Source of the DNA: Herpetosiphon aurantiacus DSM 785
Lineage (GTDB): Bacteria > Chloroflexota > Chloroflexia > Chloroflexales > Herpetosiphonaceae
Reading direction: 5' to 3'
Assembly: GCA_000018565.1 (NCBI GenBank)
Contig: CP000875.1
Coordinates: 4,913,199 to 4,977,198, forward strand
DNA length: 64,000 nucleotides
Position numbers and translations under genes: made by a program. The notes under the pieces are model-generated. The model had not been told where the DNA came from and searched no databases. It saw nothing but the letters and a program-made list of their open reading frames with translations. This document shows positions 639-64,000 of the stretch, piece by piece. Each line of letters begins with the position of its first letter. Position 1 is the first letter of the stretch.

Positions 639-661
639 GTTTTGTGCCGATCTCGCTCATA

Positions 662-38215: not shown

Positions 38216-38325
38216 CCAGTTACATAGCAGCATGCCCCGCCCCCGTTCAGCGACGATACGGGTTGGTGCGGTGTGGTGCTATGTTGTGTTTTAGCGAGCT
38301 TTTATCAACGTGGAGTATAGATTTT

Positions 38326-40197: not shown

Positions 40198-40285
40198 TGT
40201 GGAATGGGAATAAAGTTGGGAACTCGAAAATAAAGTTGGATACTACGAAAATAAAGTTGGAAACTCGAAAATAAAGTTGGATACT
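40198..40285 (+). repeat. Transposon right end with four TnsB-binding-type repeats
   Basis: ATAAAGTTGGGAACT (40,210), ATAAAGTTGGATACT (40,230), ATAAAGTTGGAAACT (40,251) and ATAAAGTTGGATACT (40,271) repeat with 20, 21 and 20 bases between starts. The Tn7 sites, as I recall them, contain AAAATAGTTGGGAACT, so both the sequence and the tight four-site array agree with the Tn7 right end. Confidence 0.85.
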
Positions 40286-40327
40286 AGTATACCTCATTGA
40301 TCCAACTATTCCAGTGTTCCAACCATA

Positions 40328-42524: not shown

Positions 42525-43897
42525 CAAGCGAGTATTTTAGTAAAGCCACAGGCAGTGGCGAATTAGGTAAAGTCGAACTTCTTGACCCTGCAAAGCGCCC
42601 CACCTTTGACCAATTTCGTTATTGGTACAACAAGTATGGCTATCCCCTTAAGGCATGGTCGAGGAGGGTTCGTCCTTCACGGTATGAGCGTATGCTCCAC
42701 CCCGCGATCCATGATGTGACCACAGTAGCATTTGGACCTGGCTCATGTTTTGAGGTTGATGCGACAATTGCCGATGTTTATCTTGTCAGTTCGCTTAACC
42801 CTCGGCGGATTGTAGGCCGGCCCGTTATTTATATTGTCAAAGATGTATTCAGTCGAATAATGGTTGTCGGATTCTCAATCCTACTTGAAGGACCGAGCTG
42901 GTTAGGCGCTATGTTTGCTCTCGAGAATGCAACCGCAAACAAAGTGGCCTTCTGCAAAGAATATGGCATAGAAATCAAGGAAGAAGATTGGCCTTGTCAG
43001 CACTTGTGCGATAAGTTACGTGCTGATCGGGGAGAATTCGAAGGCTATAATGCTGATAACCTCACCGAAGGACTGAAGATTGAGATAGAAAATACCGCTC
43101 CCTATCGTGCTGATTGGAAAGCAATTATCGAACGCGATTTTGGACTGTGTAATGAGCGGTTTATCCACTTTCTTCCAGGTGCAGTACGTCTGCGTGAACG
43201 TGGCGAGAAAGATTACCGACTTGATGCGCGCCTGACCCTCCGTGATATGCGGCAACTGATGATTTTTAGAATCTTAGAATACAACCATACACATCGCCTA
43301 ACGAACTATGAGTTTGATGAAGCTATGATGCATGCTGAAGTTGAGCCATATCCAATAGATTTATGGTATTGGGGCATTCAAAATCGGGTAGGGGCGTTGC
43401 GAGTTCTTCCACAGAACACTATCAGGCAAAATCTTCTCTACCGAACGGAAGGGTCGATTACCAGCAAAGGTATTCGATTTCAAGGGTTGCGATATACATG
43501 TTCAACCGTCCACAAAGAGTTTTGGTTTGCGACTGCAAATCGAAAGGGGAGTTGGAAAACAACGATCTTTTTTGACCCACGATGTTTAGATACGATCTTT
43601 ATCCGACATGCAAATGGTGAGATGGAGCCATGTATCTTACTTGAACGCAAAAAGGCGTTCAAACGACGAGACTTGTATGAAATTTTGGATTTTTCCATTA
43701 GCTGGCAGCAGTCTCAATATAAACGACGTGGGAGGGATGAACAGACAAGGGCTGATTTTGATCAGGAAATTGAGCGCATCAAATCAAGGGCGCAAAAACG
43801 ACAAGAAGCGATAGCGAAGAACCGAGATAATGAAAGTGATCGACGACGGATAAAAGGCATACGTACCGATCGGCAAGCCGAACGAGAATTGGATTGA
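42506..43897 (+). CDS. tnsB: TnsB catalytic fragment (DDE integrase domain)
   Basis: This frame is open from 42,506; the first ATG is at 42,692, which would give 401 residues, but coding similarity to TnsB begins earlier (EYFSKATGSGELGKVELLD, then PTFDQFRYWYNKYGYP). The retroviral-integrase-type core has the triad D23 (FEVDATIAD), D112 (LRADRGEF) and E147 (WKAIIERDFG), numbered from the ATG at 42,692, with 34 residues between the second D and the E (D-D-35-E). It catalyses 3'-strand cleavage and joining in Tn7. The fragment ends at a TGA (43,895) but the same frame reads on to 44,086 with TnsB-like tail sequence. All catalytic residues are intact. Confidence 0.88.
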   Translation, partial: RYFAKITSEYFSKATGSGELGKVELLDPAKRPTFDQFRYWYNKYGYPLKAWSRRVRPSRYERMLHPAIHDVTTVAFGPGSCFEVDATIADVYLVSSLNPRRIVGRPVIYIVKDVFSRIMVVGFSILLEGPSWLGAMFALENATANKVAFCKEYGIEIKEEDWPCQHLCDKLRADRGEFEGYNADNLTEGLKIEIENTAPYRADWKAIIERDFGLCNERFIHFLPGAVRLRERGEKDYRLDARLTLRDMRQLMIFRILEYNHTHRLTNYEFDEAMMHAEVEPYPIDLWYWGIQNRVGALRVLPQNTIRQNLLYRTEGSITSKGIRFQGLRYTCSTVHKEFWFATANRKGSWKTTIFFDPRCLDTIFIRHANGEMEPCILLERKKAFKRRDLYEILDFSISWQQSQYKRRGRDEQTRADFDQEIERIKSRAQKRQEAIAKNRDNESDRRRIKGIRTDRQAERELD

Positions 43898-44078
43898 CAA
43901 AATAATTTATGGACTTTTTCCGATCAATCTCCCGCCGAAATTACTGAGGCGATTCCATCATCCGATACGCCATTGACAGTTACCCCCATCCAAAAACCTC
44001 CACGAACAAGGTTTACAGAGTCCAGTAGCGATTATGCATTTATCCGCTCAGTCAGGGAAGATGTACGCGAGGCAAACA

Positions 44079-45581
44079 ATGAATAAGATCTATCATAATC
44101 CTTTTGGATGGAGTGGAGATGAAGAAGATGCTATTTATCATGAACAAATCCTGCCGATGTATCAGGATAATCCCTTGATCGAAGCCTTACCACCAATCCG
44201 GCCTTCAGTTGAAGTATTCCGTAATCTTACCAAATTTCCACCAATGAAGTCAGAATATCGGTTGTTCCCAGCGGAAGAACGTTTGCACTTGATCAGATGC
44301 ATCGATCAGTTTTTTCAGCCATTGCCACGACATGGACGCTTATTTAGCGATATATGTGGAATGATTTATAAAGGGTATATTGCTAGAAACCCTCTTTCAA
44401 AAGGATTTTGGAAAACACTAGATGGTAATGTTGATAAGCTCGTTGTCAACTTACGACAGAAAAATCATATCGCATATAGAAAAAGTGCGACAACGATGAG
44501 CCTCATTGGAATCAGTGGTATTGGTAAATCTCGTAGTCTAGAAGAAGTCCTTAGCTTGTTCCCTCAAATAATTAATCACCATACCTATCGCGGAGTACCA
44601 TTTCCTTGGAAACAGCTTGTGTGGTTAAAGTTGGAATGCCCCCATAATGGTTCAACTCGTTCCCTCGGACTAGCTTTTTTTGAACAAATAGACTGGATTC
44701 TTGGAACAAACTATATGCATGGTTATGCACGTAATGGCCGAGCTACAGAGATGGAGTTGTTGAAGAATATGGCCAGAGTTGGGGCGATTCATTCATTAGG
44801 TGTATTAGTGATTGATGAAATCCAAGCCCTTAGTCAAGCCAAAAGTGGTGGAGCTGAGGAGATGCTTAATTTTTTTGTAGAGTTAGTTAATACTCTCGGC
44901 CTGCCAATTATCTTAATAGGCACATATAAGGCACAAAAACTATTCAGTCAAGCCTTCCGCCAAGCTCGACGAGCCAATTCCTATGGTGGGGATTCGTGGG
45001 ATCGGATGAAAGTTGATGAAGATTGGAAACTATTTTTAGAAACCCTTTGGCAATTTCAATATACAAAACACCCAGTTAAGCTCACGGATCGGCTTGCCGA
45101 GACCTTGTACGATCTATCCCAAGGTATCACTGATATTGCAATCAAAGTATTCATTCTTGGGCAAACACTAGCCATTAGAACTGGTGAAGAAAGGCTGTCA
45201 CCAGAATTGCTTATCACAGCATCAGAAAGAGCGCTATCGATGGTACAACCATTCCTAACAGCGCTGAGAACAAATAATATGGATCAATTTATGCTGATGG
45301 AAGATATTCAACCAATTAATCTAGAAATAGCACTCAATGACCTCAATTCAATTTATACCAATCAACAATCCTTGGAGCCTCATCTTGATAGTAATGAATC
45401 CCTATCTAAGAGGGCATTAGGAATCGATTTAGCAATTGATAGCTCGTCAGTTGATGCCTATGATCAACTCAAGCAACAAAATCTTATTAGTGATATATCC
45501 AGCGATCTTAGCTTTCTCTCTAGAAATGGGAAGGAGGAGTCAAATGAGGCATCAACTGAAAAAGAGGAGTCAGAAAAATGA
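44079..45581 (+). CDS. tnsC: Tn7-like ATPase regulator TnsC
   Basis: 500 residues. The ATG at 44,079 overlaps the ancestral tnsB stop and has GCGAGG upstream. TnsC is the AAA+ switch that links target choice (TnsD) to the TnsAB transposase. The Walker A motif GISGIGKS is at 144-151 and Walker B LVIDEIQ at 243-249; AEEMLNFFVELVNTLGLPI, LIGTYKA, QARRANSYGG and LSQGITDIAIKVFILGQ all follow Tn7 TnsC in order. DNPLIEALPP near residue 35 matches Tn7 DNPFIEALPP. The stop overlaps the tnsD start (ATGA). It appears intact. Confidence 0.94.
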   Translation: MNKIYHNPFGWSGDEEDAIYHEQILPMYQDNPLIEALPPIRPSVEVFRNLTKFPPMKSEYRLFPAEERLHLIRCIDQFFQPLPRHGRLFSDICGMIYKGYIARNPLSKGFWKTLDGNVDKLVVNLRQKNHIAYRKSATTMSLIGISGIGKSRSLEEVLSLFPQIINHHTYRGVPFPWKQLVWLKLECPHNGSTRSLGLAFFEQIDWILGTNYMHGYARNGRATEMELLKNMARVGAIHSLGVLVIDEIQALSQAKSGGAEEMLNFFVELVNTLGLPIILIGTYKAQKLFSQAFRQARRANSYGGDSWDRMKVDEDWKLFLETLWQFQYTKHPVKLTDRLAETLYDLSQGITDIAIKVFILGQTLAIRTGEERLSPELLITASERALSMVQPFLTALRTNNMDQFMLMEDIQPINLEIALNDLNSIYTNQQSLEPHLDSNESLSKRALGIDLAIDSSSVDAYDQLKQQNLISDISSDLSFLSRNGKEESNEASTEKEESEK

Positions 45582-47523
45582 TGCTTACTCAATTTCCTAT
45601 ACCCTATCCGGATGAACTACTCTATAGCATTTTAGCGAGGTATACCGCACATATGCGCTTCGCCTCAGCTAACATTTACCCTATCCGGATGAACTACTCT
45701 ATAGCATTTTAGCGAGGTATACCACACATATGCGCTTCGCCTCAGCTAACATTGCTGTTGAAGAACTTTTTGGCACACGAAATATTGTAGCTGTTGTTGA
45801 TCTTCCTAGCCGACTAGATATTTTATCCAATCGGCTACCCAAGGCATTAGGTCTTAATTCGGAACTACTTATCAGCAATCACACGTCATTGCCTTTGTTT
45901 GCGCCTTTTTTATCTGGTGATGCTCTCCACAGAGTCCGACGTTCAATGCTCGGCAATAAAGGGGGAACAGTACATTCGCGCATTGGTATTATGGCTAGTG
46001 GAGTCAAGAGCCTCAGAAAGCTGCGTTTTTGTCCAGTGTGTGTCAATGAAGATCGGTCAAAATATGGAGAATGTTATTGGCATCGGGTTCATAATATCGC
46101 AGGAATCAATGTTTGTGCCCATCACGGATGCATTTTACAAGATAGCATTCTTTCATTTCAACGACAGAGCACCTATTACGCCTACAACGCAGCAGAAGAT
46201 TACATACCAGAGATAGAGTTTGCAGATCCGACTCCAGCAAATCTGCATCTCTATGCTCTTGCCAAGCAAGCCTATTGGCTCTTAAACAATATATCTAATG
46301 CAGATCTGAAGGATATGTATAATGTCTATCGAAGATGCCTTGATTTAAGAGGGCTTACGACGGCATCCAATAGCATTCGTCAGCAGCAACTTCAATCCAC
46401 ATTCATAGATTTCTACACGCCTGAATTGCTTGATACTATATCTTGCTCTTTAGAAGATGTTCATCAAACATGGTTATCCCGCCTAGTTGGCGGAGATTAC
46501 GTAGCACATCATCCTCTTCGTCATCTTCTGGTACTTCATTTCTTTGGCCACACGCCGGAGAGCGCATTGAAGAGTCTTGATGAACCTACGCCCGATCCAT
46601 TCGGTCACGGCCCTTGGCCATGTCTTAATCGAGTTTGTCCACATTCACACAAAGATGTTATTGAAACATGTAATGTAAGGCGTAGTCGGTATACCCGTGA
46701 TCGGCCAATTGGGACATTTGCTTGTCCATTTTGTGGATTCAGCTATATACGGACAGGGCCGGATCAATCTCAGAACTCGCGATATCATATTAGTAAAATC
46801 CAGGAATTTGGCTTCATATGGGAAAAGAGACTGGTTGAACTGTTCGCTCAACAAATCCTGAGCCTACGTGCTATAAGCAAGATCTTGGGCGTTGATCCCA
46901 ATACTGTCAAACGTCATGCACAACGACTTATGGATACTGGTGATAAAACCTTAAATAAAGACCTATCTAATACTAATGCTAGCTTAGATGCGACTGATCT
47001 TCTAATATCACATCGACACACATGGCTTAAAGCGATTAAAGTTTTTCCTCAATTTGGTGTATCCCAATTGAGAAAACGCTTTAGCACGGCCTATGCTTGG
47101 CTTTACCGAAATGACAAAGCTTGGCTTTTTCTCCATACCCCAGCCAGATCTAGTCGGATTTTCCGTACGAATCGAGTATCATGGCCAGCCCGGGACAAAT
47201 TGCTACTACAAGCGGTGCAAGAGGCAGCAACCAGAATTTTAAACCAGGAACAATGGCCTAAACAAATGACCTTAGGTGCTATTGGAAGAGAGGCAGCGTG
47301 TCTCCCGATCCTACAGCGACATTTAGATAAGCTGCCGAAAACGGCAGATCGTCTGAAAGATTTGGTGGAAACGAGAGAGGCGTGGGCTGTAAGGCGGCTC
47401 CAATGGACTATTAACCAAGCACAAAATCAAGGACTCATTCTCAAGGGCTGGGAAATTGTTCAACGCTCAGGCTTAGGACGTTTCCCCAAGAAATGGTTTG
47501 AACATCATGGTATACAGTTTTAA
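45578..47523 (+). pseudogene. tnsD: tnsD with a 77-bp tandem duplication at its 5' end
   Basis: The original start is the ATG at 45,578 (GAGGAG eight bases upstream, ATGA overlap with tnsC). It reads MMLTQFPIPYPDELLYSILARY, close to Tn7 TnsD FPVPYSNELIYSTIAR. The segment 45,600-45,676 is repeated at 45,677-45,753 with one G-to-A difference. As 77 is not a multiple of three, the first frame stops at 45,712. Removing one copy restores a frame of about 624 codons that runs to 47,523. Confidence 0.8.
45730..47523 (+). CDS. tnsD: TnsD/TniQ target-selection protein, N-terminally truncated frame
   Basis: 597 residues from the ATG at 45,730. TnsD-type proteins bind the 3' end of glmS and bring TnsC there, which explains the insertion site. 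The zinc finger of the TniQ domain is C101, C104, C129 and H132 (FCPVCVNEDRSKYGECYWH to CAHHG). A second cysteine cluster (FACPFCGFSYIR) and a helix-turn-helix (LSLRAISKILGVDPNTVKRH) lie in the DNA-binding half, and AYAWLYRNDKAWL plus WPARD match the Tn7 TnsD C-terminus. If translated from 45,730 it lacks about 25 N-terminal residues of the TniQ domain. Confidence 0.88.
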   Translation: MRFASANIAVEELFGTRNIVAVVDLPSRLDILSNRLPKALGLNSELLISNHTSLPLFAPFLSGDALHRVRRSMLGNKGGTVHSRIGIMASGVKSLRKLRFCPVCVNEDRSKYGECYWHRVHNIAGINVCAHHGCILQDSILSFQRQSTYYAYNAAEDYIPEIEFADPTPANLHLYALAKQAYWLLNNISNADLKDMYNVYRRCLDLRGLTTASNSIRQQQLQSTFIDFYTPELLDTISCSLEDVHQTWLSRLVGGDYVAHHPLRHLLVLHFFGHTPESALKSLDEPTPDPFGHGPWPCLNRVCPHSHKDVIETCNVRRSRYTRDRPIGTFACPFCGFSYIRTGPDQSQNSRYHISKIQEFGFIWEKRLVELFAQQILSLRAISKILGVDPNTVKRHAQRLMDTGDKTLNKDLSNTNASLDATDLLISHRHTWLKAIKVFPQFGVSQLRKRFSTAYAWLYRNDKAWLFLHTPARSSRIFRTNRVSWPARDKLLLQAVQEAATRILNQEQWPKQMTLGAIGREAACLPILQRHLDKLPKTADRLKDLVETREAWAVRRLQWTINQAQNQGLILKGWEIVQRSGLGRFPKKWFEHHGIQF

Positions 47524-47751: not shown

Positions 47752-48981
47752 TTAAATTGGTTGTGGAATACTGCTTCCATGAGGTTCCTGAGTTGTAGTT
47801 AAGGTTTGCAAATCTTTTGATTGCGAGATCATCCAATCTTTCTGGGCCTCGGGAGAAATATAAACGGTTCGCAGGGTTACTGCACGACCGTGAGCATCAA
47901 CCGCAGTAAATACACCTGGATACTCGTTGGGTAGTTGCGTTGGTGCAATAGCACTATTGTTGAATATAGTCCGTATAGGCATTCGCTTGCCATTCTGCTG
48001 AAAAATGGGATCTTTATCCATTGGACCAAGAAGTCGATCTGAGAAAAAATGGTGGTAACAGGGCGCAAGATCCGACATATTGCGACTTTCAATAATAATT
48101 CGAAACCCTAATGCAGGGCCATACATCATGAGCAGAGTAAGGGCCTTCTCAACAAGTTTCTTACCAATCGCGCTACTTATGGCAGTAGGGTCGGCAATAT
48201 AGACAACGATCAAAGGTAAATCGTCACCGTGATAGGTGTTCCATGTGAGAACATGATGCGCTGCCAGTACCTCAGCCCGACGTTTTGCTTCAGCATGTAA
48301 TTGTTTGATAGAGTCCAGTATTCCCTGAATACTCTGTGCGAACAACAGTGTATAGGCAGAGTTTTCCATTAAGTTAATATCCGCATCCTTAGTATTAAAA
48401 ATGACAAATTGAAGCTCACGAGGTGTTCGCTGGAGCATTAGTGCCATCATTCCAGACAAAACCCATGCTGTTTTCCCATAGCCTTCTGGACTAATAATAG
48501 CCACGTTATAGGTATCGGCACCAAGATCGGCATATGCCGCATCTGGCATTTGTCCTTGGTTAGACGGAATATACCATCCATAGGGCAAGAGATAACGTGC
48601 TTGTGGCTCAATCGATTGAAGATAGTCAAAAGTCGCGTTAAGTGTGGGTGGATTTAATAAGGCCATTCCCGTTTCGGGAATAGTTTTTAAATGCGTAAAT
48701 GTTGGTTTGATAAGGCATGCTTGTGTTGGTTGAGAATGAATGCTGAAATTATTTTCTTGAGGATTGTGAGTCTGAGGAGGCGTTTTCCATACTGTTTCGA
48801 TTTGAGGTGGTATGGTTCGAAGGAATTGGCATACGCGCAACACTTGTGTCCAGTGCCGATGCGCAAGCATACACCCAATCATGCTCCAGAGAAAGAGAAG
48901 CGGCGCAACATTATCCCAAATAAACCCAAGCACGAAGCCTCCTACACCGTGTTTGAACCTCATCGATTCTAGCATTATCAT
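47752..48981 (-). CDS. FtsK/SpoIIIE-like ATPase with N-terminal membrane segments
   Basis: About 409 residues if the ATG at 48,981 is used; no clear ribosome binding site decides among the ATGs at 48,981, 48,975 and 48,963, and the frame extends to 49,047. Hydrophobic stretches near the N-terminus (GVGGFVLGFIWDNVAPLLFLW) suggest one or two membrane segments. The P-loop is in YNVAIISPEGYGKTAWVLSG, and a Walker B-like LPLIVVYIAD follows; LEFVIFN/AYTLLFAQS patterns resemble the FtsK motor domain. It points opposite to the tns genes and is possible cargo. The function is unknown: DNA transport between cells or DNA segregation are options. Confidence 0.65.
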   Translation of the reverse strand: MIMLESMRFKHGVGGFVLGFIWDNVAPLLFLWSMIGCMLAHRHWTQVLRVCQFLRTIPPQIETVWKTPPQTHNPQENNFSIHSQPTQACLIKPTFTHLKTIPETGMALLNPPTLNATFDYLQSIEPQARYLLPYGWYIPSNQGQMPDAAYADLGADTYNVAIISPEGYGKTAWVLSGMMALMLQRTPRELQFVIFNTKDADINLMENSAYTLLFAQSIQGILDSIKQLHAEAKRRAEVLAAHHVLTWNTYHGDDLPLIVVYIADPTAISSAIGKKLVEKALTLLMMYGPALGFRIIIESRNMSDLAPCYHHFFSDRLLGPMDKDPIFQQNGKRMPIRTIFNNSAIAPTQLPNEYPGVFTAVDAHGRAVTLRTVYISPEAQKDWMISQSKDLQTLTTTQEPHGSSIPQPI

Positions 48982-48998
48982 AGCATAATTAATCCATT

Positions 48999-49027
48999 TT
49001 GGATTAAGAATATGGGCTGCATATGAT
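48999..49027 (+). promoter_or_regulatory. Promoter for a leaderless Xre mRNA
   Basis: TTGGAT (48,999-49,004) and TATGAT (49,022-49,027) are 17 bases apart. The start codon at 49,034 is seven bases past the -10, so transcription would begin at the ATG. No ribosome binding site is present. Confidence 0.5.
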
Positions 49028-49033
49028 AGCTTT

Positions 49034-49288
49034 ATGTCAGTCCTCAAACTCGACTATCAAGATGCCTATCAACTCCTCGCTCGTCGGCTCAAAGAGGCGC
49101 GTGAATTAGCTGGTTTAACCCAAATCCAAGTGGCAGCCATTATTCATAAGTCACAATCCTATGTAACCAAGTGCGAAACTGGTGAAAAGCGGGTTGATGT
49201 GATTGAGCTACTCATTTTCTCAAAGATCTATCATCGTGACCCCAGCTTTTTTACTGATGATATTTCCCCCTTGGTACAGCCTTTTTAG
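49034..49288 (+). CDS. Small Xre-family helix-turn-helix protein
   Basis: 84 residues, almost entirely one HTH domain: LLARRLKEARELAGLTQIQV (helices 1-2), AAIIHKSQSYVTKCETGEKR (recognition helix and turn), VDVIELLIFSKIYHRDPSFF. Divergent from the FtsK-like gene with overlapping 5' regions, which it may control. It is different from the Xre protein next to tnsA. Confidence 0.82.
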   Translation: MSVLKLDYQDAYQLLARRLKEARELAGLTQIQVAAIIHKSQSYVTKCETGEKRVDVIELLIFSKIYHRDPSFFTDDISPLVQPF

Positions 49289-49426: not shown

Positions 49427-49488
49427 ACGACTTAATTTGCCAAGAAGCGTTTCACATAGAATGATCTTTCAGTTCAGGAGTACACATT

Positions 49489-50394
49489 ATGGGGCACTAC
49501 TTCCCATCTCTTTATCCTGGTGAAATATTCTATAGTGTCTGTGCACGATATTTAAGTCATCTGAGATATACCGATAAGAAATTTGCAAAATCAGAATTAC
49601 TCCAACCATATACTATTTCTATCTATTTTCCAAGAAATATTACAGCTTTATGTGATAAATATCAGATCGAGATACCATCGATAGAAGAAATAATCAATAA
49701 ACATACTATATTTCCACTATTAAGAATTTTCCTCAGTAAGGAACACGCCTATCTTAATAATTATAAAGATCCAAGCAAAATCTGGTCTATTCCGGCTTTA
49801 AAAAGCTATATCGATACCCATAAAAATTATCGATTAAGGTTTTGCAAAGATTGTGTTATAGATGACAGGAAGACTTATGGAGAAGGATATTGGCATATCT
49901 TACATCAGGTACCTTGGATAAATATATGTTATAAACATTCAATCTTTTTACATACCCCTATATACCCTCGGAAAAACCTCATCAATAATTTCATTTCACT
50001 AGAAGATACTCTCTCTAAATACAAAATAAAATATTTGTATAAAGTAAGGTCTATTCTCTATATGCTTTCAGATACTTTATTTATTTTCAATGAGCAACCA
50101 ACTATAAGCTTTGATAAAATCTCAAATTCAATAAGAAGTATTATCCTAGATAGAGGGTATACTCGAACAGGTATAAGTATCAGTCATAAAGCTTTATACA
50201 ATAAAATTATAGATTCTTATTCAAAACAAACGATAGATTTTTTATATTCTTCAAAAACCATATCCAAGAAAAATGTTTCTATCATGATTATCCAAGATAA
50301 TATCACCAGATCGCGTGCTGTTGCTTACCTTGTACTGTCCCACCTCCTTGGTTGTACACTACAAGATATCATCAAAAATTGTATGAATACATAA
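49489..50394 (+). CDS. Second TniQ/TnsD-like protein
   Basis: 301 residues; CAGGAG lies 8 bases before the ATG. The N-terminus YFPSLYPGEIFYSVCARYL parallels that of TnsD (FPIPYPDELLYSILARY). The TniQ zinc finger is RFCKDCVIDDRKTYGEGYWH to INICYKHSIF (C, C, C, H). There is no large C-terminal DNA-binding half as in TnsD. The gene is much AT-richer (roughly 30% GC) than its surroundings. It may direct the element to a second kind of target, or be a remnant. No TnsE and no Cas gene accompany it. Confidence 0.8.
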   Translation: MGHYFPSLYPGEIFYSVCARYLSHLRYTDKKFAKSELLQPYTISIYFPRNITALCDKYQIEIPSIEEIINKHTIFPLLRIFLSKEHAYLNNYKDPSKIWSIPALKSYIDTHKNYRLRFCKDCVIDDRKTYGEGYWHILHQVPWINICYKHSIFLHTPIYPRKNLINNFISLEDTLSKYKIKYLYKVRSILYMLSDTLFIFNEQPTISFDKISNSIRSIILDRGYTRTGISISHKALYNKIIDSYSKQTIDFLYSSKTISKKNVSIMIIQDNITRSRAVAYLVLSHLLGCTLQDIIKNCMNT

Positions 50395-51559: not shown

Positions 51560-52096
51560 ATGGAAAACGGGTTACAACAATCAATCGACATGGCCGTACT
51601 GAACCCTCTTGAACGCATCCTTCTCATCACCGACGGTACGGTTACTGAAATTTTGCAAGCTTACTACCGCGAACCTATCAACTTGATTAAGCTTTCCGAG
51701 AAGATATCCACGAACCGCGATATCGATCTTTTAGATGTTCGCGCCGGCGAGGAAGTCTTAGAGCGCCAGATCCTGTTGCAAGGACGCGACAGCGGCAGGA
51801 CGTATATCTATGCGGAGTCGCTCATTGCGATCGAAAAGTTCGACGATGAGCTGCGAGCGAGCATGCGCGATACATTGCTGAACTCAAATCTGCCGCTTGG
51901 ACGCCTCTGGTTGGATCATCGGCTAGAAACGTTCAAAGAAATGGTTTCCCAACGCCAGGAAAAAGCTCACAACCTTTGCTCGATCTTTGATATCTCCAAT
52001 GATCATCACGTTGTGTTGCGCACATACCGCGTTTTCTCACGGAAGAAAAAAATTATGCTTATCACGGAGATGTTCCCGCTGAACTACCTGGACTAA
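51560..52096 (+). CDS. Chorismate pyruvate-lyase family (4-hydroxybenzoate synthase)
   Basis: 178 residues; a weak GTAGAGA site precedes the ATG. It belongs to the family of Rv2949c of Mycobacterium (DUF98), which converts chorismate to 4-hydroxybenzoate and pyruvate. Matching segments are LERILLITDGTVTEILQAYY, VLERQILLQGRDSGRTYIYA followed by ESLIAIEKF, LPLGRLWLDHRLETFKEM, and RTYRVFSRKKKIMLITEMFP. It is not the E. coli UbiC type. Its place directly before an aryl-AMP ligase says that the product primes the polyketide. It is cytoplasmic. Confidence 0.88.
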   Translation: MENGLQQSIDMAVLNPLERILLITDGTVTEILQAYYREPINLIKLSEKISTNRDIDLLDVRAGEEVLERQILLQGRDSGRTYIYAESLIAIEKFDDELRASMRDTLLNSNLPLGRLWLDHRLETFKEMVSQRQEKAHNLCSIFDISNDHHVVLRTYRVFSRKKKIMLITEMFPLNYLD

Positions 52097-52176
52097 CCAG
52101 CGGCCTTCTATCGGCTTAATCGCTTCGCGTTGTTGAAGACGCGTTCTACGACGCTGTCTGTGTGCAAGGAAGATGT

Positions 52177-54300
52177 ATGTCTGAGGCTTTTATCCAAACG
52201 ACATCGACGAAATATCCCCAGAAAACCGCAGTTATTGATGGACCCAGACGTATAACCTACGAGCAACTTGCCGCTTCCATCGGTTCATTCGCCAATGAAC
52301 TGACTGCGGCCGGGGTTACTGAAGGCGAAAGCATCGCCTTGGTGCTACCAAATTGCGCGGAGTTTGTCATCGGCTTTTACTCCACCCTGCATATCGGCGC
52401 GGTTGTTTTGGCACTCAATCCTCTGTTGAAGCACAACGAGATCAACTACTATCTTGCCGATGCCCAGGCCAGGGTTATTCTCACTACCAAGCTGTACATG
52501 GGCATGTGCCGCGAGATCGTCGCCGCAGCTGGCCGCTCAATCGAAATCATTGCCCTGGATGGTGTGCTGGAGGGTTCCCGCGCTGCCGCATCGGAACGCG
52601 CCGCGCCCGCGGCTGCCGACCCGCATCGGCCAGCGTTGTTTCAGTATTCCTCTGGTTCGACCGGGCGCCCGAAAAAAGTGATGCGCACCTATGGCAATCT
52701 GTGTGCCGAGGGTGATAATTTTACCGCCACTGTCGGTATGACCCACGACGATGTGATTTTGTGCCTGGTTCCGCTTTTTCATGCCCACGGGCTGGGCAAT
52801 TGCTTGCTGGCTGCCACCATGGTCGGAGCAACCCTAGTGATTTTGGAGCAGCCGATGGACGGAAATGCTGTTGTCGACATGCCCTTTATCGCCCGTTGTG
52901 CCAGAGTCTTCGAGCTGATCGAAATCGAGCGGGTTAGCGTTTTGCCCGGCGTCCCCTATGTGTTTAGCGCACTCAGCAGTGCACAGGTGGGCTTCGAGCC
53001 TGCGCTGGGATCGCTGCGTTTGTGTTTTTCCGCCGGCAATTTCTTGACCAGGGATGTGTTCGACGCCTTCCTGGACCGCTTTGGCATTGCCATCAAGCAA
53101 CTCTACGGCTGTACCGAGGCGGGATCGGTCACCATCAACCTTGAGGATGATCCGAGCCTCGCCGCCAGCGTGGGGCTGCCGATACGCAATGTTGAACTCC
53201 ATATCTGCGATGAGCAAAAAAACCGGCTCGCGCCCGACGCCATCGGCGAAATAGCTTTCAAAAGCCCCATGCTGACCAGCGGCTATGTCGGCCTGGAAGA
53301 CATCAACCGGGACATGTTTCGCGATGGCTTTTTCTTCACCGGGGATCTCGGCAGGCTTGATGAGGCCGGGCGCTTGACCATCACCGGTCGCAAAAAAATT
53401 TTTATCGATGTCGGCGGCAGGAAGGTCGATCCCCTGGAGATCGAGGATGTCCTGCTAACGCATCCCCGGGTCAAGGAAGCGGTCGTCGTCGGCATCAAGG
53501 CGCCCTATGGCGGCGAGTTTGCCAAGGCTGTGGCCGTGCTGGACGGCGAATGCACCCAGACGGAGCTCCTCCAGTATTGCAAGGACCGCTTGGCCGACTT
53601 CAAAGTCCCGCGCATGATTGAATTCCGCAACGAGATTCCAAAAAGCCCCCTCGGCAAAATTTTACGCAAAAATCTGGTTGATGACTCAGCCGTGGCGGAG
53701 GTTGAAGCCCTTGGATCAACCCTGAGCCAGCACATGCGATCCACTTCGTCTAGGGAACAGCGCCTTTCGCTGGCCAAGCAATGCGTGCGCCAGCAGATTG
53801 CCCGCATCTCGGGTCTTGATGTCGCCCAGATCGGCCTTTCGAACGCCCTCAGCGACTTCGGGCTTGATTCGGCGCGGGCGATTGAATTGCAGATGTCCCT
53901 GGAGAATCTGATGGGTGCGGGTTTATCGGCCACGATGGTGTGGCAATATCCCGATCTGGACTCGTTGAGCGGGTATCTGGTGGATATTGTTGACGCGCAG
54001 ACGGCGGGCGCCGATCCCGCAGCCGTGCCGGATCGGGCGGCCGCGCCGCCGGCCGCTCGCCCCTCCGCTATCCAGGCGATCGACGACCTTTCAGATGATG
54101 CCATTGAGGCGCTTTTGCGTTCACAGGTCGATGGCATCCTCCAGCCGCAGAACACGACAAACGCCCATACCATCCCCGGTTTGAATGAGGGTGACTCGGC
54201 GGGTATTGATCGGCTTGCCCAACTTTCCGACGAGGATGTCACCGATCTGCTGCTCAAGGAATTCGCACGACTAAGCCGAACCGGCCAACCTGAAGCATAG
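52177..54300 (+). CDS. FadD22-like aryl-AMP ligase fused to an aroyl carrier protein
   Basis: 707 residues from the ATG at 52,177 (GGAAG five bases upstream). Mycobacterial FadD22, which activates 4-hydroxybenzoate and loads it on its own carrier domain, has about the same size and domain order. Adenylation domain about 1-510: phosphate loop FQYSSGSTGRPKK, YGCTEAGSV, FFTGDLGRLDEAGRLTITGR, and the lysine in SPLGKILRK. Carrier domain about 545-625 with the phosphopantetheine serine in DFGLDSARAI. The C-terminus holds two copies of a short helical motif, LSDDAIEALLRSQ and LSDEDVTDLLLKE. A 91-base gap separates it from the PKS gene. Confidence 0.88.
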   Translation: MSEAFIQTTSTKYPQKTAVIDGPRRITYEQLAASIGSFANELTAAGVTEGESIALVLPNCAEFVIGFYSTLHIGAVVLALNPLLKHNEINYYLADAQARVILTTKLYMGMCREIVAAAGRSIEIIALDGVLEGSRAAASERAAPAAADPHRPALFQYSSGSTGRPKKVMRTYGNLCAEGDNFTATVGMTHDDVILCLVPLFHAHGLGNCLLAATMVGATLVILEQPMDGNAVVDMPFIARCARVFELIEIERVSVLPGVPYVFSALSSAQVGFEPALGSLRLCFSAGNFLTRDVFDAFLDRFGIAIKQLYGCTEAGSVTINLEDDPSLAASVGLPIRNVELHICDEQKNRLAPDAIGEIAFKSPMLTSGYVGLEDINRDMFRDGFFFTGDLGRLDEAGRLTITGRKKIFIDVGGRKVDPLEIEDVLLTHPRVKEAVVVGIKAPYGGEFAKAVAVLDGECTQTELLQYCKDRLADFKVPRMIEFRNEIPKSPLGKILRKNLVDDSAVAEVEALGSTLSQHMRSTSSREQRLSLAKQCVRQQIARISGLDVAQIGLSNALSDFGLDSARAIELQMSLENLMGAGLSATMVWQYPDLDSLSGYLVDIVDAQTAGADPAAVPDRAAAPPAARPSAIQAIDDLSDDAIEALLRSQVDGILQPQNTTNAHTIPGLNEGDSAGIDRLAQLSDEDVTDLLLKEFARLSRTGQPEA

Positions 54301-54391
54301 CCAGCGGGGTCGCCCGAGCGACGATGCGGGCGTGCCTGGGGATCGTTGTGCTTCGGGGTGTAACTAATGAAGCAACAAAGGGGATAACGCG

Positions 54392-57300
54392 ATGGTCGAT
54401 GACCAGCAACCACTTGATAGCCTCTCGATTGAGAAACGTTCGCTGCTTGCGCTGCGCCAGATGCAGGCACGCATCGATGCCTTGGAAGAAGCGAAAAACG
54501 AACCGATCGCGATCATCGGGATGGGATGTCGCTTTCCGAGCGGCGCGAATGATCCCGAGGCATTCTGGGAGTTGCTTGTTTCCGGCACCGATGCGATTAG
54601 CGAGATCCCAGCCAGCCGCTGGGACGCCGATGCGCTGTATGACCCCAACCCCGAAACGCCGAACAAGGCCGCCAGCCGCTGGGGCGGTTTCCTCGATCAG
54701 GTCGACGGCTTTGACGCCGCCTTTTTCGGTATCTCGCCGCGCGAAGCGCTGAAGATGGATCCTCAGCAGCGGCTTTTGCTTGAAGTGGCTTGGGAAGCGC
54801 TCGAACGGGCCAACCAGCCGGTGGGGAAATTGGCCGGTAGCCGGTCGGGCATCTTTGTGGGAATCTCCAACAACGATTACTTTCACATGCAGCTCGATGG
54901 CGCCCCGATATCGGACGCCTACCTTGAGACCGGCAACCGCAATAGCTTTGCGGCCGGTCGACTGGCATACTTGCTGGATTTTCGCGGCCCGGCCCTATCA
55001 ATTGACACCGTCTGCTCGTCATCGCTGGTGGCCGTGCACATGGCCTGCCAAAGCCTGCGCACCGGCGATTGCACGCTGGCCCTGGCCGGCGCGGTCAACC
55101 TTGTCCTGTCGCCGCTGGTGACGATGATGGCCTCACGCTGGGGCATGATGGCCGCCGACGGGCGCTGCAAAACCTTTGACTCGCGGGCCAACGGCTTTGT
55201 ACGCAGCGAAGGCTGCGGAATTGTTGCCCTCAAACGCCTTTCCGATGCGCAAGCGGCGGGCGATCCTATTCTGGCGGTTATTCGCGGCTCTGCGGTCAAC
55301 CAGGATGGCCACTCGGCCGGCATGACCGCGCCCAATGGACAGGCGCAGAAGGCCCTGATCCGCCAGGCTCTCCAGAACGCGGGCATCTCGCCCGATGCGA
55401 TCAGCTATGTCGAGGCGCACGGCTCGGGGACGGCCCTGGGTGACCCGATCGAGGTCGAAGCGCTGGCTTCGGTGATTGGGCGTCCACGCCCCGACGGCAG
55501 ACCGTGCATCCTCGGAGCTGTCAAGACCAACATCGGTCACCTGGAAACGGCGGCGGGCATGGCCGGACTGATCAAGACCATCCTGGCCCTGCGCAACGAG
55601 CGGATTCCGGCGAACCTGCACTTCGAAGCCCTCAACCCGCGCATCTCCCTCGCCGGGACGCGGCTTGTGTTGGCGACCGAGGGCGCACAATGGCCGGCCG
55701 GCGATCAGCCCCGCTACGCCGGAGTCAGCGCCTTTGGGCTGAGCGGCACCAACGCCCATCTGATCCTTGAAGAAGCGCCCAGGCCGGCGCAAGCGCCGCA
55801 GAAACCGGCGGACGGAGAGGATGCGCTGTATCTGCTGCCGCTTTCGGGCCGGAGCCAGCGCGCGCTTAGCCAACTGGCCGAGCGCTATCGGCGCCTGCTG
55901 ACCGCCCAGGCCGGGCCGGCTTTGCCTGGAATCGCCTATACCGCAGCGACCCGGCGCGACCACCATTCGCACCGCCTGGCGGTCTTTGGCCGGGACAAGC
56001 GCGAAATTGCCGACCAGCTGTCCGCCTTTCTGGCCAACCAGAGCTGCGCCCAGGTAGCGGTCGGTGAGATCGAGCCGGATGTCCATGATCGCCTAGTATT
56101 TGTGTTTCCCGGGCAGGGCTCCCAATGGATCGGCATGGGCCGCGAGCTGTGGGAACGCGAACCGGCGTTTCGCGCCGCCATCGCTGCCTGCGACAGCGCC
56201 TTCCGCGACTACGCCGACTGGTCACTGATCGATGTCCTGACCAATCCCGATGCCAGGATCGAGGAAATCGACGTGTTGCAGCCGACCTTGTGCGCCATCC
56301 AGATCAGCATCGCGGCCCTGTGGGAGTCGTGGGGTGTCAAGCCAAAGGCGGTTGTGGGCCACAGTATGGGCGAGGTCGCGGCGGCCTATGTCGCCGGGAT
56401 CCTGAGCCTGTCCGACGCCGCCAGGATCATATGCCGGCGCAGCTGGCTGCTGCGGCGCATCCGTGGCAAAGGCGCGATGCTTATGGCCGAGATCACCCTG
56501 GATCAGGCGCGTGAGGCGATTGAGCCGCATGGCGGCGCAGTTTCGATCGCCGTCAACAATAGCTCGCGCTCGATCGTGCTGGCTGGCGAAACCGCCGCCT
56601 TGGAATATATCCGCGCCGATCTTGACAGCCAGCAGGTGTTCTGCCGCTGGGTGAAAGTTGACGTTGCCTCGCACAGCCCGCAGGTCGACTCGCTGCTCGA
56701 CGATTTGGCTGCCGAGCTGGTTCCGCTGGCGCCTGGGGCGGCGCACACGCCCTTTTACTCAACGGTCAGCGAGACAGTCTGTGCGGGTCCGGAGCTTGGC
56801 GCCGCGTATTGGGTGCGTAACCTGCGGGAGCCGGTGATGTTCGGACCCACGATCCAGCGGCTTGTTGATGCAAACCACAGTGTGTTCTTGGAGATCAGCC
56901 CGCACCCGATCCTGCTTCCGAGCATCACCCAGGGTCTCCAGGAGCGGGGTGGCGCTGGCAAGGCCCTCGCTTCCCTCCAGCGTGATACGTCGGAGCGGCA
57001 GGCGCTTTTTGAGACCCTGGCCAAGCTTCATGTGCTCGGCTTCCCGCTTGCCTGGGACGCCCGTCTGCCAGGACCTCGCTCCGAAGTGGCCCTGCCGACG
57101 TATCCCTGGCAACGTGAGCGCTTCTGGATCGACATGCCGCTCAGCGCGACTCCAGGCGGAGGGCGCGCCGGGTGGAGCCAAAGCAGCGCCAAGAGCCACG
57201 TCCTGCTAGGCACGCGGGTTCAGGTGGCGACGACTCCGGATACTTGGGTATGGGAGAACGTACTGGATCTGAAGCAGATGCCCTATCTGGCTGAGCATCA

Positions 57301-60300
57301 GGTGCAGGATATCGTGGTGCTGTCGGCGTCGGCATATATCGAGATTGCGTTTGCGGCTGCGCGGGCCGTGTTCGACGCGGGCAACCATATGATTGGTGAC
57401 ATGCGGCTGCTGCATATGCTGGTGCTCAGCGAAGACGAACCGGTGAGCACCCAGGTGGTGCTGACGGTTGACGGCCCGACGGCGGGCACGGTTCGCATCT
57501 TCAGCCATTCCAGGGCCGATGAAGAAGGCGACGGCGAGTGGACGCTCCACGCGGCGGCGCTGATCAAACGGGCGGTTGAAGAGCAGGAAGCCGGCCCGGA
57601 GGTCGCGCTTGCGCTTCACGCCATCAAAGCCCGTCTTCCGGAGACAATCAGCGGCGAGGCACACTATCGGGCCATGGCGGCGCACGGCCTGGTTTATGGC
57701 CCGCGATTCCGCGGACTACGCCAAATTTGGCGCAGTCCGCGCGAGGCGCTGGCCCAGGTTGAGATTGCCGACGAAGTGCTTGGCTCTACCGCCGCCTACG
57801 GCTTCCACCCTGGGCTGCTCGACTCATGTTTGCAAACGCTGAGCGCCATTCTTTACCAGGGCGCCGAGACGGCCGATGCTATGCCACACCTTCCGGTTGG
57901 GATCCACCATATCCGGCAGTTTCAGCCGCTTCCCAAGGGTCCAATCTGGGTACACACCCAGATTGGCAATGGCGACGATGCGGGCCTGAACTCGCCTTAC
58001 GGTTATATCGAGCTGCTTGATCTCCAAGGACAGCCGATCCTGCGGCTGGATAACCTACGCTTGCAACGGATCGAGCCGACTGGCACGGCCATGCCGCTGG
58101 ATAAAATCAGCCAGTGGTTCTACGGTGTTGAGTGGAAATCCCAGCCCCAGCCCCAGCCTCAGCCGCTGACGGAAACTGGCACATGGATTATTTTTGCCGA
58201 CCAGCAGGGCTTGGGCGCGGAATTGTACGACCGCTTGATCGCACAAGGGCAGTCGCCGATTCTAGTCGTCGACGCGGCTGCGCCGGTGGTGCGGCCAAAC
58301 ACCCACCGCATCGATCCGAGCGACCCCCAGTCCTACATTGATCTCTTTCGCCGCGCCGATAAGCCTGGCAACCCGCCGTGCCGGGGCGTGATCCACCTGT
58401 GGAGCCTTGACATGGAACCCGGCGGTGATCCGCTGACGGCGCCAGCCGAGCGTGGATGGGCCAGCTCCCTGTTGCTTATCCAGGCCCTGCTCCAAACCGG
58501 GCTGCGGCCCCGCCTGTGGCTGGTGACCAGAAACGGCCAGGCCCTGGGTAGCTACGACAATCCGATCAGCGTGGCGCAGACGCCGCTGTGGGGCCTTGGC
58601 CTGACGATCGCCCACGAGCATCCGGAACTGCGCTGTAGCCGCATCGACCTGGCTCTAGAGGTGCTGCCCGCCGAAGCCAACATGCTGCTGACTGAGCTGA
58701 CCGCTGCGGCCTTTGAGGAGCAAGTCGCCCTGCGCTCCCACGGGCGCTATGTCGCCCGCCTGGTCCCCTGGGCCGCGTCCGCCGAGCATAGCGAACCCGA
58801 GAGCTTGGCCGGTGAGCAGCCGTTTGAACTGGAAATGGCGAAAGCCGGTGTGTTCGATCTGATCAAGTTCCGGGCACTTGAGCGAGTGGCCCCCGGTCCG
58901 AGCGAGGTGGAGATCGAAGTAGAAGCCGCCGGCCTGAATTTCCACGACGTGTTGCTGGCGCTGGATGTCATCCGCGACTTGGAGGACGAAGATATCCCGC
59001 GGCTCGGCAGCGAGCACGCCGGTCGGATCGTCGCCGTTGGTTCCGACGTAACCGACCTGTATGTCGGGCAGGAAGTCATCGCCCTGGCCAACGGCCAGCT
59101 GGGCACCCATATCATCACCCGACAAGAATTGGTAGTTCCCAAGCCGGCCTGGCTCAGCTTTGCCGAGGCGGCGACCATCCCGGTGGTTTTTTTGACCGCC
59201 TATTACGGACTGTATCATCTGGCCAGGCTCGCGCCCGGCGAGCGGGTCTTGATCCATTCGGCGGCGGGTGGGGTTGGCCTGGCGGCTATCCAGCTCGCGC
59301 AGCTGCGCGGCGCTGAAATCTTCGCCACCGCAGGTAGCTTGGAGAAACGGTCCCACCTGCGCGCGCTCGGCATCCAGCACGTCTTTGACTCGCGCTCGCT
59401 GGCCTTCGTTGAGTCGATCCGGGCCATAACCCACGGCGAAGGCGTTGACGTGATCCTTAACTCGCTGGCCGGCGATTTTATCCCGGCCAGCCTTGGCCTG
59501 TTGCGCGACCACGGCCGTTTTATTGAGCTAGGCAAGCGCGATTACTACCAAAACCGCCAGTTTGGCCTTAAGCCCTTCCTTAAGAATCTCTCGTTCACCC
59601 TGCTTGACTTGCACGGCATCGTCGAGCAGCGGCCCGGCCAGATCAAGGGATTACTGGCGGAAGTGCTCGGCCTGCTAGAAGCAAAGAAAATCCACACGCG
59701 GCTGCATCAAGTCGTGCCGCCCCGCCGCATCGCCGACGCGTTGCACGCTATGGCCCAGGGCAAGCACATCGGCAAATTCGCGGTGTCCTTCGCCGAGCGT
59801 GCGCACACCCCGATTGTTTTCAAGTCGGCCACCTCCCTACCAATCTCTCCCAACGCCACGTATGTCGTGACCGGCGGGCTGGGCGGGGTCGGCCTGACTG
59901 TTGTCGAGTGGCTGGTCGATCAGGGTGCGCGGCATGTGGCGTTGATCGGCCGCAGCGCGCCCAGTGCGGCTGCCGCCAGAACCATCCGTGGGCTGGAGGA
60001 GTGCGGGGCGCAGATCGCGGTGCATCGCGCCGATGTCGCAGTCCGCGCCAACTTGGTCGATGTCTTCGCCGAGATCAGGACATCCATGCCGGAAGTGCGC
60101 GGCGTTATCCATGCGGCCGCGGTACTTGAGGATGCGGTGCTCGACTGCCTCGACCGCCAACGCTTCGAGACAGTCCTGGCCCCCAAGGTCGCGGGCGGTT
60201 GGCACCTCCACGAGATTTCGCTCAGCCTTCCGCTGGACTTCTTTGTTCTGTTCTCGTCGGCCGCCTCGCTGATTGGTTCGCCGGCGCAGGGCAACTACGC

Positions 60301-61084
60301 CGCCGCCAACGCTTTCCTAGACGGCCTGGCCCACTACCGGCGAGCGCTAGGGTTGCCCGCCCTGAGCATCAACTGGGGCGCCTGGGCCGAGGTCGGCCTG
60401 GCGGCGGCGCAAAGCAACCGCGGCGAGCGGCTGGCCCAGCAAGGCATCGAGAGCTTTAGCCCCGGCGATGCGCTTGATGCGTTTGGCACCCTGCTGCGTT
60501 ACAGGGCGACCCAGATTGGCGTGATCGACTTCAACCTCCAGCGCTGGCAGCATGCCAATCCGGGCGCGGTCGATCTGGCGCTGTTCGCCGAGCTGCGCGA
60601 CAACGGTTCCTACGCGGACACTTGGCGCGCCGACGCCAATACCGTCCGCGCCGATCTTTTCGCCGCTGAGCCGGCGTTTCGCAAGGGTTTGTTGGAAGCG
60701 CACCTGCGCGATCAAATCGCCAAGGTGCTGCATCTGGCCCCGGAGAAAATCGGCAATCGAACGCCACTGGGTAGCCTAGGCTTCGATTCATTGCTCGCCC
60801 TAGAGTTCCGTAACCGACTTGAGGCCAGCCTGTCGGTCGCCCTCTCCGGGACGCTGATCTGGGGCTTTCCGACGATCAACGTGCTGGTGCCCCACCTGGC
60901 GGAAAAGATGGGGCTGCCGTTGCAAGGACCCCATCCAGAAGCAGCACCGGTGCAGGGCGCGCCTTCAGACAGTCCAGCCCAGGCCGAGCAGGTCGAGGCC
61001 GACCTGATGATTGATTTCACCATGTTGGATGTCCTTGACCAGCTTTCCGATGACGACGTTCGGCGTATGCTTTCCGGAACATAG
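54392..61084 (+). CDS. Type I polyketide synthase, KS-AT-DH-ER-KR-ACP
   Basis: 2230 residues; AGGGG lies 9 bases before the ATG. A short N-terminal helix (LDSLSIEKRSLLALRQMQAR) acts as a docking segment. KS about 36-460 with C208 (DTVCSSSL) and the two catalytic His (EAHGSGT, NIGHLE). AT about 565-885 with S658 (GHSMGE). DH about 930-1225 with H969 and D1144 (HPGLLDS). ER about 1485-1805 (HSAAGGVGLAAIQLA). KR about 1820-2010 with GGLGGVG and SSAASLIGSPAQGNYAAANA; the LED motif suggests a B-type ketoreductase. ACP with S2133 (GFDSLLALE). It ends with LDQLSDDDVRRML. The fully reducing single module resembles Pks15/1, which works iteratively on 4-hydroxybenzoate. AT specificity (VASHS motif) was not assigned. 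Confidence 0.95.
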   Translation: MVDDQQPLDSLSIEKRSLLALRQMQARIDALEEAKNEPIAIIGMGCRFPSGANDPEAFWELLVSGTDAISEIPASRWDADALYDPNPETPNKAASRWGGFLDQVDGFDAAFFGISPREALKMDPQQRLLLEVAWEALERANQPVGKLAGSRSGIFVGISNNDYFHMQLDGAPISDAYLETGNRNSFAAGRLAYLLDFRGPALSIDTVCSSSLVAVHMACQSLRTGDCTLALAGAVNLVLSPLVTMMASRWGMMAADGRCKTFDSRANGFVRSEGCGIVALKRLSDAQAAGDPILAVIRGSAVNQDGHSAGMTAPNGQAQKALIRQALQNAGISPDAISYVEAHGSGTALGDPIEVEALASVIGRPRPDGRPCILGAVKTNIGHLETAAGMAGLIKTILALRNERIPANLHFEALNPRISLAGTRLVLATEGAQWPAGDQPRYAGVSAFGLSGTNAHLILEEAPRPAQAPQKPADGEDALYLLPLSGRSQRALSQLAERYRRLLTAQAGPALPGIAYTAATRRDHHSHRLAVFGRDKREIADQLSAFLANQSCAQVAVGEIEPDVHDRLVFVFPGQGSQWIGMGRELWEREPAFRAAIAACDSAFRDYADWSLIDVLTNPDARIEEIDVLQPTLCAIQISIAALWESWGVKPKAVVGHSMGEVAAAYVAGILSLSDAARIICRRSWLLRRIRGKGAMLMAEITLDQAREAIEPHGGAVSIAVNNSSRSIVLAGETAALEYIRADLDSQQVFCRWVKVDVASHSPQVDSLLDDLAAELVPLAPGAAHTPFYSTVSETVCAGPELGAAYWVRNLREPVMFGPTIQRLVDANHSVFLEISPHPILLPSITQGLQERGGAGKALASLQRDTSERQALFETLAKLHVLGFPLAWDARLPGPRSEVALPTYPWQRERFWIDMPLSATPGGGRAGWSQSSAKSHVLLGTRVQVATTPDTWVWENVLDLKQMPYLAEHQVQDIVVLSASAYIEIAFAAARAVFDAGNHMIGDMRLLHMLVLSEDEPVSTQVVLTVDGPTAGTVRIFSHSRADEEGDGEWTLHAAALIKRAVEEQEAGPEVALALHAIKARLPETISGEAHYRAMAAHGLVYGPRFRGLRQIWRSPREALAQVEIADEVLGSTAAYGFHPGLLDSCLQTLSAILYQGAETADAMPHLPVGIHHIRQFQPLPKGPIWVHTQIGNGDDAGLNSPYGYIELLDLQGQPILRLDNLRLQRIEPTGTAMPLDKISQWFYGVEWKSQPQPQPQPLTETGTWIIFADQQGLGAELYDRLIAQGQSPILVVDAAAPVVRPNTHRIDPSDPQSYIDLFRRADKPGNPPCRGVIHLWSLDMEPGGDPLTAPAERGWASSLLLIQALLQTGLRPRLWLVTRNGQALGSYDNPISVAQTPLWGLGLTIAHEHPELRCSRIDLALEVLPAEANMLLTELTAAAFEEQVALRSHGRYVARLVPWAASAEHSEPESLAGEQPFELEMAKAGVFDLIKFRALERVAPGPSEVEIEVEAAGLNFHDVLLALDVIRDLEDEDIPRLGSEHAGRIVAVGSDVTDLYVGQEVIALANGQLGTHIITRQELVVPKPAWLSFAEAATIPVVFLTAYYGLYHLARLAPGERVLIHSAAGGVGLAAIQLAQLRGAEIFATAGSLEKRSHLRALGIQHVFDSRSLAFVESIRAITHGEGVDVILNSLAGDFIPASLGLLRDHGRFIELGKRDYYQNRQFGLKPFLKNLSFTLLDLHGIVEQRPGQIKGLLAEVLGLLEAKKIHTRLHQVVPPRRIADALHAMAQGKHIGKFAVSFAERAHTPIVFKSATSLPISPNATYVVTGGLGGVGLTVVEWLVDQGARHVALIGRSAPSAAAARTIRGLEECGAQIAVHRADVAVRANLVDVFAEIRTSMPEVRGVIHAAAVLEDAVLDCLDRQRFETVLAPKVAGGWHLHEISLSLPLDFFVLFSSAASLIGSPAQGNYAAANAFLDGLAHYRRALGLPALSINWGAWAEVGLAAAQSNRGERLAQQGIESFSPGDALDAFGTLLRYRATQIGVIDFNLQRWQHANPGAVDLALFAELRDNGSYADTWRADANTVRADLFAAEPAFRKGLLEAHLRDQIAKVLHLAPEKIGNRTPLGSLGFDSLLALEFRNRLEASLSVALSGTLIWGFPTINVLVPHLAEKMGLPLQGPHPEAAPVQGAPSDSPAQAEQVEADLMIDFTMLDVLDQLSDDDVRRMLSGT

Positions 61085-61096
61085 ATACAAGGAGGA

Positions 61097-61132
61097 GTGG
61101 ACTCCGCTGTCGTTGCGCACGGTGTCCGCTGA
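61097..61132 (+). other. Possible short upstream frame before the second PKS
   Basis: A strong AAGGAGGA at 61,088-61,095 is directly followed by GTG at 61,097, giving 11 codons (MDSAVVAHGVR) and a TGA at 61,130-61,132. The PKS ATG lies eight bases beyond. The SD is very close to the GTG, so this may simply be the SD for an undetected start of the PKS (TTG at 61,113). Confidence 0.3.
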
Positions 61133-61139
61133 ATTGCGT

Positions 61140-64000
<2,861 letters not shown>

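Follow-up and report, generated by a model that had tools for sequence, protein, structure and literature searches.

A putatively phenol-primed PKS/NRPS cluster of Herpetosiphon aurantiacus as likely cargo of a decayed Tn7-like element at glmS

The window analysed here, a stretch of 64,000 nucleotides from the predatory bacterium Herpetosiphon aurantiacus, holds the beginning of a large PKS/NRPS cluster together with glmS and a set of Tn7-like genes (Table 1). The cluster was followed past position 64000 in extended coordinates, which continue those of the window and equal the genome position minus 4913198. It runs from 51560 to extended 164114 (112,555 bp) with unbroken genes, all on the plus strand, and has a GC content of about 65% compared with about 42% on its left and about 52% on its right. 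It comprises 16 PKS modules, 7 NRPS modules, a thioesterase, hydroxymalonyl-ACP genes, a DAHP synthase and an ABC exporter, and closes with a type II thioesterase, an ABC ATPase, an ABC-2 permease and the DAHP synthase. Because size and content match the published entry, the cluster is PKS/NRPS 5 of H. aurantiacus 114-95T (Haur_04184-04206; 112.6 kb, 16 PKS and 7 NRPS modules), which was catalogued by Kiss et al. (2011, PMC3368417) yet is uncharacterised. In that paper, the cluster appears as one table row, 'Macrolide'; its hydroxymalonyl-ACP genes, a suspected foreign origin and flanking transposon fragments were noted, while the paper is silent on the 4-hydroxybenzoate starter and the Tn7-like element that are read here.

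Table 1. Features of the glmS region, the element ends and the start of the cluster (window coordinates, or extended coordinates where marked; G044 is one of the relatives compared).
Feature	Coordinates	Strand	Evidence and remarks
glmS, attTn7 target gene	38137..40170	+	SIS x2, GATase_6
glmS-proximal element end	40198..40286	+	TGTGGAATG start, four abutting 20-bp repeats
tnsA	41072..41902	+	PF08722, PF08721
tnsB, broken	41820..44083	+	frame change near 42515; Mu-transpos_C
tnsC	44034..45581	+	AAA_22, TniB; 99% identical to G044 copy
tnsD	45578..47523	+	PF15978, E 1e-95
FtsK/SpoIIIE-like gene inside element	47752..49047	-	92% identical to G044 copy
TniQ-family gene	49489..50394	+	PF06527; 97% identical to G044 copy
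Chorismate lyase (predicted), 178 aa	51560..52096	+	PF01947 (Rv2949c-like), E 5e-18
Ligase with fused carrier, 712 aa	52162..54300	+	AMP-binding, AMP-binding_C, PP-binding
PKS module 1, KS-AT-DH-ER-KR-ACP, 2230 aa	54392..61084	+	domain profiles
PKS module 2	61011..64000 in window, to extended 67838	+	KS-AT in window, DH-ER-KR-ACP beyond
Far (inverse) element end	extended 166835-166986		three spaced repeat copies

An earlier note on this DNA had likened the first three genes to mycobacterial phenolic glycolipid synthesis. The row of lyase, ligase-carrier and fully reducing PKS is real according to the domain profiles (PF01947, AMP-binding/PP-binding, KS-AT-DH-ER-KR-ACP), and its placement at 51560-61084 is correct, though this span covers just the first 9.5 kb of the 112.6-kb cluster. 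The proposed chorismate lyase homology of the first gene holds in a profile search as well (65.9 bits for PF01947 against a curated cut-off of 22), and no other PF01947 gene was found when the H. aurantiacus genome was searched. Its product is predicted to form 4-hydroxybenzoate from chorismate. The second gene encodes a ligase region (aa 9-507) and a carrier domain (aa 542-606, motif FGLDS), an adenylation-carrier fusion that adjoins the lyase gene and is built like FadD22, and is predicted to act as the 4-hydroxybenzoate loader; a PDB search with the ligase gave no match at the strict cut-off. Given the lyase profile, the ligase-carrier fusion and the DAHP synthase with which the cluster closes, 4-hydroxybenzoate is a well-supported candidate for the starter unit. 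The ligase might instead load another acid (benzoate, a fatty acid or another aryl acid) while the lyase serves something else, as none of the aryl-specific ligase models scored above its own cut-off for the ligase and the family scores are generic only. We regard this as improbable, however, since lyase and ligase are adjacent here, in cyanobacteria and in a proteobacterial MAG, a DAHP synthase lies inside the cluster, and most relatives are without the lyase.

The lyase was found in only two of six Herpetosiphon genomes and the ligase in the same two, and the pair is therefore not part of core metabolism. Relatives of the lyase (44-48% identical) adjoin a ligase (50-51% identical) in Calothrix L074, Phormidium L083 and Pleurocapsales L078, with NRPS genes next downstream, and lyase and ligase are also neighbours in one proteobacterial MAG. 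The occurrence of a related pair before cyanobacterial NRPS genes argues for a general, widespread loading cassette rather than a mycobacterial signature. Unlike the H. aurantiacus ligase, the cyanobacterial ligases (513-520 aa) have no fused carrier, and a giant KS-AT-KR array as in H. aurantiacus was not seen in the DNA fetched for these loci. Within the order but at a greater distance, one genome has a lyase next to a DAHP synthase that is 58% identical to the copy in the H. aurantiacus cluster. In one same-order genome, a DAHP synthase gene adjoins one lyase gene and a type II thioesterase gene adjoins another (L018 500-1942; L017 148-1559). In two Chloroflexaceae MAGs (L025 1114-10766, L026 121-5696), a lyase of 43-44% identity has a radical-SAM (HemN-like) protein and an AMP ligase as neighbours, one of these MAGs adding a small PKS (KS-AT-ACP-TE) and an FAD halogenase-like gene. 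The Chloroflexaceae loci represent a different, small cluster of 4-hydroxybenzoate type.

PKS module 1 can be aligned over its full length with mycocerosic acid synthase. Both module 1 and module 2 are fully reducing and 48% identical to each other, and their best matches are Pks2 and MAS, of the iterative mycobacterial-type PKS group. Modules 3-16 are all of the KS-AT-KR-ACP type, and no dehydratase was found in any of them; a polyol is the expected output. Within modules 6-16, two types with about 53% identity to each other mostly alternate: modules 6, 8, 10, 13 and 15 belong to type one (69-82% identical) and modules 7, 9, 12, 14 and 16 to type two (82-88% identical), with module 11 intermediate between them. 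These near-identical, mostly alternating modules offer a natural case of assembly-line growth through repeat expansion. Motif reading of the PKS modules found the KS cysteines, the KR catalytic residues and the ACP serines in place. The NRPS part contains seven adenylation domains, a terminal thioesterase and one doubled condensation-type domain, which is probably an epimerase and a condensation domain. The second NRPS protein (6684 aa; L012 1-1800) opens with A-PCP and no C domain, following a protein of C-A-PCP layout, and simple colinearity is thus broken at this point. Three NRPS modules carry near-identical adenylation domains with the same motif segments (L012 1801-8100, L013 1-2280), which suggests recent duplication or conversion; substrate codes read by eye from the NRPS motifs were dropped as too uncertain.

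A biosynthetic scheme, in which substrates, colinearity, product and export are inferred, can be drawn from these genes. The in-cluster DAHP synthase would feed chorismate to the lyase for conversion to 4-hydroxybenzoate, which the ligase would adenylate and load onto the carrier domain fused to it. Modules 1 and 2 would each add and fully reduce one unit; with malonate and a single round per module, this would yield a 5-(4-hydroxyphenyl)pentanoyl chain. Modules 3-16 would add 14 further units, each left with a hydroxyl. The seven NRPS modules would then append amino acids, the thioesterase would free the product and the ABC transporter would export it. The affiliation of modules 1 and 2 with Pks2 and MAS leaves some room for iterative action of the kind known from Pks15/1 or MAS, by which a long 4-hydroxyphenylalkyl chain would precede the polyol and the product would be more lipid-like. 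This is conceivable, if rather unlikely, as the presence of two distinct fully reducing modules suits one step each.

In mycobacteria, Rv2949c provides p-hydroxybenzoate, which is activated by FadD22 and elongated by Pks15/1 before FadD29 and Pps take over (PMC7205293). H. aurantiacus shares with this phenolphthiocerol/phenolic glycolipid pathway the order of lyase, ligase-carrier and first fully reducing PKS, whereas a polyol PKS and NRPS follow downstream in place of the Pps set; the likeness to Rv2949c and FadD22 is one of family profile and layout, and no mycobacterial locus was returned by one genome scan. Of the phenolic glycolipid-like pathway envisaged in the earlier note, the 4-hydroxybenzoate priming (lyase, ligase-carrier, DAHP synthase) is retained, while everything after the first PKS departs from it. 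The second PKS, for which a Pps role had been considered possible, turned out to be another fully reducing module feeding 14 KS-AT-KR and 7 NRPS modules with a thioesterase. More PKS genes were indeed present in the rest of the cluster, as anticipated, but the PapA5, methyltransferase and glycosyltransferase genes that had been thought possible there were absent among the cluster genes scanned, as were Pps, FadD29, Mas and MmpL/MmpL7. Membership in the phenolic glycolipid pathway was rejected, as the downstream genes do not fit (no PpsA-E type set; KS-AT-KR and NRPS modules instead). A true pathway of that type, in which an iterative Pks15/1-like enzyme makes a 4-hydroxyphenylalkanoate and Pps-like extension leads on to a wax-like lipid, would share the gene order at the start and could be reconciled with the ABC-2 type exporter of the cluster, but is highly improbable in view of the second fully reducing PKS, the long KS-AT-KR and NRPS line with its TE, and the failure to find PapA5-, MmpL-, FadD29-, methyltransferase- and glycosyltransferase-like genes in the cluster. 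As the cluster genes scanned included no Pps, PapA5, methyltransferase or glycosyltransferase, the product is likely a 4-hydroxyphenyl-capped polyol acyl-peptide or macrolactone, and not a phenolic glycolipid. A phenol-capped polyhydroxy acyl-peptide is accordingly the chemical prediction to look for.

Genes for a 3-hydroxyacyl-CoA dehydrogenase, a free ACP, an acyl-CoA dehydrogenase and an FkbH-like HAD protein stand side by side between the PKS and NRPS genes, the FkbH assignment combining a HAD match with the published annotation (PMC3368417). As these supply genes are present, some use of hydroxymalonyl-ACP by the cluster ATs is likely, in modules that we leave unspecified. The ATs of modules 3-16 display GYS[LV]G, an HAFH lid and an A[SC]R triplet ending in Arg, and those of modules 1-2 display GHSMG and VASH; the ACP-type motif set used for comparison consists of GYSxG, an altered lid and a hydrophobic MXW triplet. 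Genome-wide, GYSxG was confined to the 14 ATs of modules 3-16, the other readable ATs having GHS or GQS and three ATs being unreadable by pattern. For zwittermicin, GYSxG was described in two ACP-dependent ATs and HAFH in the malonyl-CoA AT (PMC4207774). The hydroxymalonyl-ACP supply genes and the GYSxG motif resemble the zwittermicin A pathway (ZmaA, ZmaF; hydroxymalonyl-/aminomalonyl-ACP), whereas the HAFH lid and A[SC]R triplet are unlike ZmaA, the starter differs and the PKS is far longer. We can only speculate, with considerable doubt, that hydroxymalonyl-ACP is the extender in many, or even all, of modules 3-16, giving a sugar-like, phenol-capped and peptide-tailed chain made by a pathway that once moved as a 127-kb Tn7-like unit; if true, hydroxymalonyl-ACP in place of malonyl-CoA would leave a hydroxyl on nearly every chain carbon. 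A literature search returned nothing relevant that joins 4-hydroxybenzoate with hydroxymalonyl, or on FadD22 starter units.

The gene glmS is present in all nine relatives (9/9). In H. aurantiacus, the glmS-proximal element end starts with TGT, 27 bp after the glmS stop codon. The end pattern has exactly two matches genome-wide, in opposite orientations and bracketing the tns genes and the cluster, compared with none for the reversed control, and the element thus delimited measures 126,789 bp, with the whole 112.6-kb cluster between its two ends. The end repeats, inverted between the two ends, are candidate TnsB-type sites. Tn7 itself has four packed sites in Tn7R and three spaced sites in Tn7L. 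Like Tn7 and Tn7-like transposons, the element has tnsABCD and TniQ, insertion just after glmS and end repeats, and the 5-bp duplication is seen in the related G044 element; it differs in its 112.6-kb PKS/NRPS cargo, an extra FtsK-like gene and damage to tnsB and tnsD. For Tn7, transposition substrates containing 90 bp from the right end and 166 bp from the left, insertion about 20 bp after glmS and a 5-bp duplication have been described (PMC2918618). An element end at about 50.5 kb, taken from a first comparison with G047, was ruled out, since the end repeats and the G044 element place the far end at 166986.

In G044, a complete Tn7-like element of 22,965 bp follows glmS (G044:C1:232471-255435; L048, L070), with one end-pattern match per orientation and an exact TTTAC 5-bp duplication on both sides. 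Its tns genes are 92-99% identical to the H. aurantiacus copies and its cargo is DISARM-like (DrmA, DrmB, cytosine methyltransferase). Compared with the single 769-aa tnsB ORF of G044, the H. aurantiacus gene is split into two frames, and its tnsD carries a 77-bp tandem duplication near the start (45600-45753) that is absent from G044. On account of these two lesions, the H. aurantiacus element is decayed and probably immobile by itself today.

G045 represents the empty site, where the next gene, for a YihY-like membrane protein (by eye), lies within about 130 bp of glmS. In G047, glmS is followed by a remnant of the same element end and then by the PKS cluster (96.5% identical in a comparison of its outer parts, the cluster being split over contigs), beyond which lies the native downstream gene; tns genes are absent from the stretch that links glmS to the cluster, and the far end is missing. 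Together with the empty site in G045, this layout indicates that attTn7 was the entry point of the cluster, which now separates glmS from its native neighbour there. The right flank in H. aurantiacus is not this neighbour and abuts sequence located elsewhere in relatives, and a 5-bp target duplication is absent (CTTCT versus TTAGC), so this genome does not show the insertion in intact form. The gene that natively follows glmS in G045 and G047 was noticed in inverted orientation at window 1-1816, about 36 kb before glmS. The inverted neighbour, the non-native right flank and the lost duplication point to rearrangement of the right flank after insertion; simple inversion was discarded as the cause, as a search of the window did not turn up the partner junction that it should have left.

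These irregularities bear on whether the cluster is transposon cargo at all, or reached the glmS region by another route with a Tn7-like element landing beside it. The latter would agree with the G044 element, which sits at glmS without the cluster, with the missing duplication and rearranged right flank in H. aurantiacus, and with the IS fragments that separate the cluster from the far end. It is nevertheless unlikely, because the two element ends that enclose the cluster are the only ones in the genome and are correctly inverted, the far end aligns with that of the G044 element, and the G047 cluster begins after the end remnant next to glmS and extends no further than the native downstream gene. 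Considering gene order, domain content, catalytic motifs, transposon ends and the occupied and empty sites in relatives, we hold it to be likely, inferred chemistry included, that the three genes at 51560-61084 are the loading end of a 112.6-kb line carried into attTn7 by a 126.8-kb Tn7-like transposon.

The more interesting result is that a known but uncharacterised, putatively phenol-primed PKS/NRPS cluster is probably carried by a decayed Tn7-like element. Transport of an entire 112-kb assembly line in this way would show by what vehicle giant natural-product pathways can spread horizontally; the foreign origin of the cluster was suspected in 2011, then without a vehicle. NRPS genes have been mentioned earlier as Tn7-like cargo, and elements of up to 117 kb were reported by 2021 (PMC8649781), compared with 126.8 kb in H. 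aurantiacus. No paper on a Tn7-like element in Herpetosiphon was found in the open-access literature, and the cluster as Tn7-like cargo was not found in the open-access papers searched, which falls short of proving novelty.

Some minor features of the element were also recorded. The FtsK/SpoIIIE-like gene and the second TniQ-type gene (47752-50394) belong to this Tn7-like family and also occur in G044. The stretch from the cluster to the far end contains fragments of ISL3-like and DDE transposases (L010 1174-2830 = extended 164976-166632). Just inside the glmS-proximal end, at 40327-40364, a perfect 17-bp inverted repeat, AAACATCCTGACCATGA, is conserved in G047 and almost fully conserved in G044.
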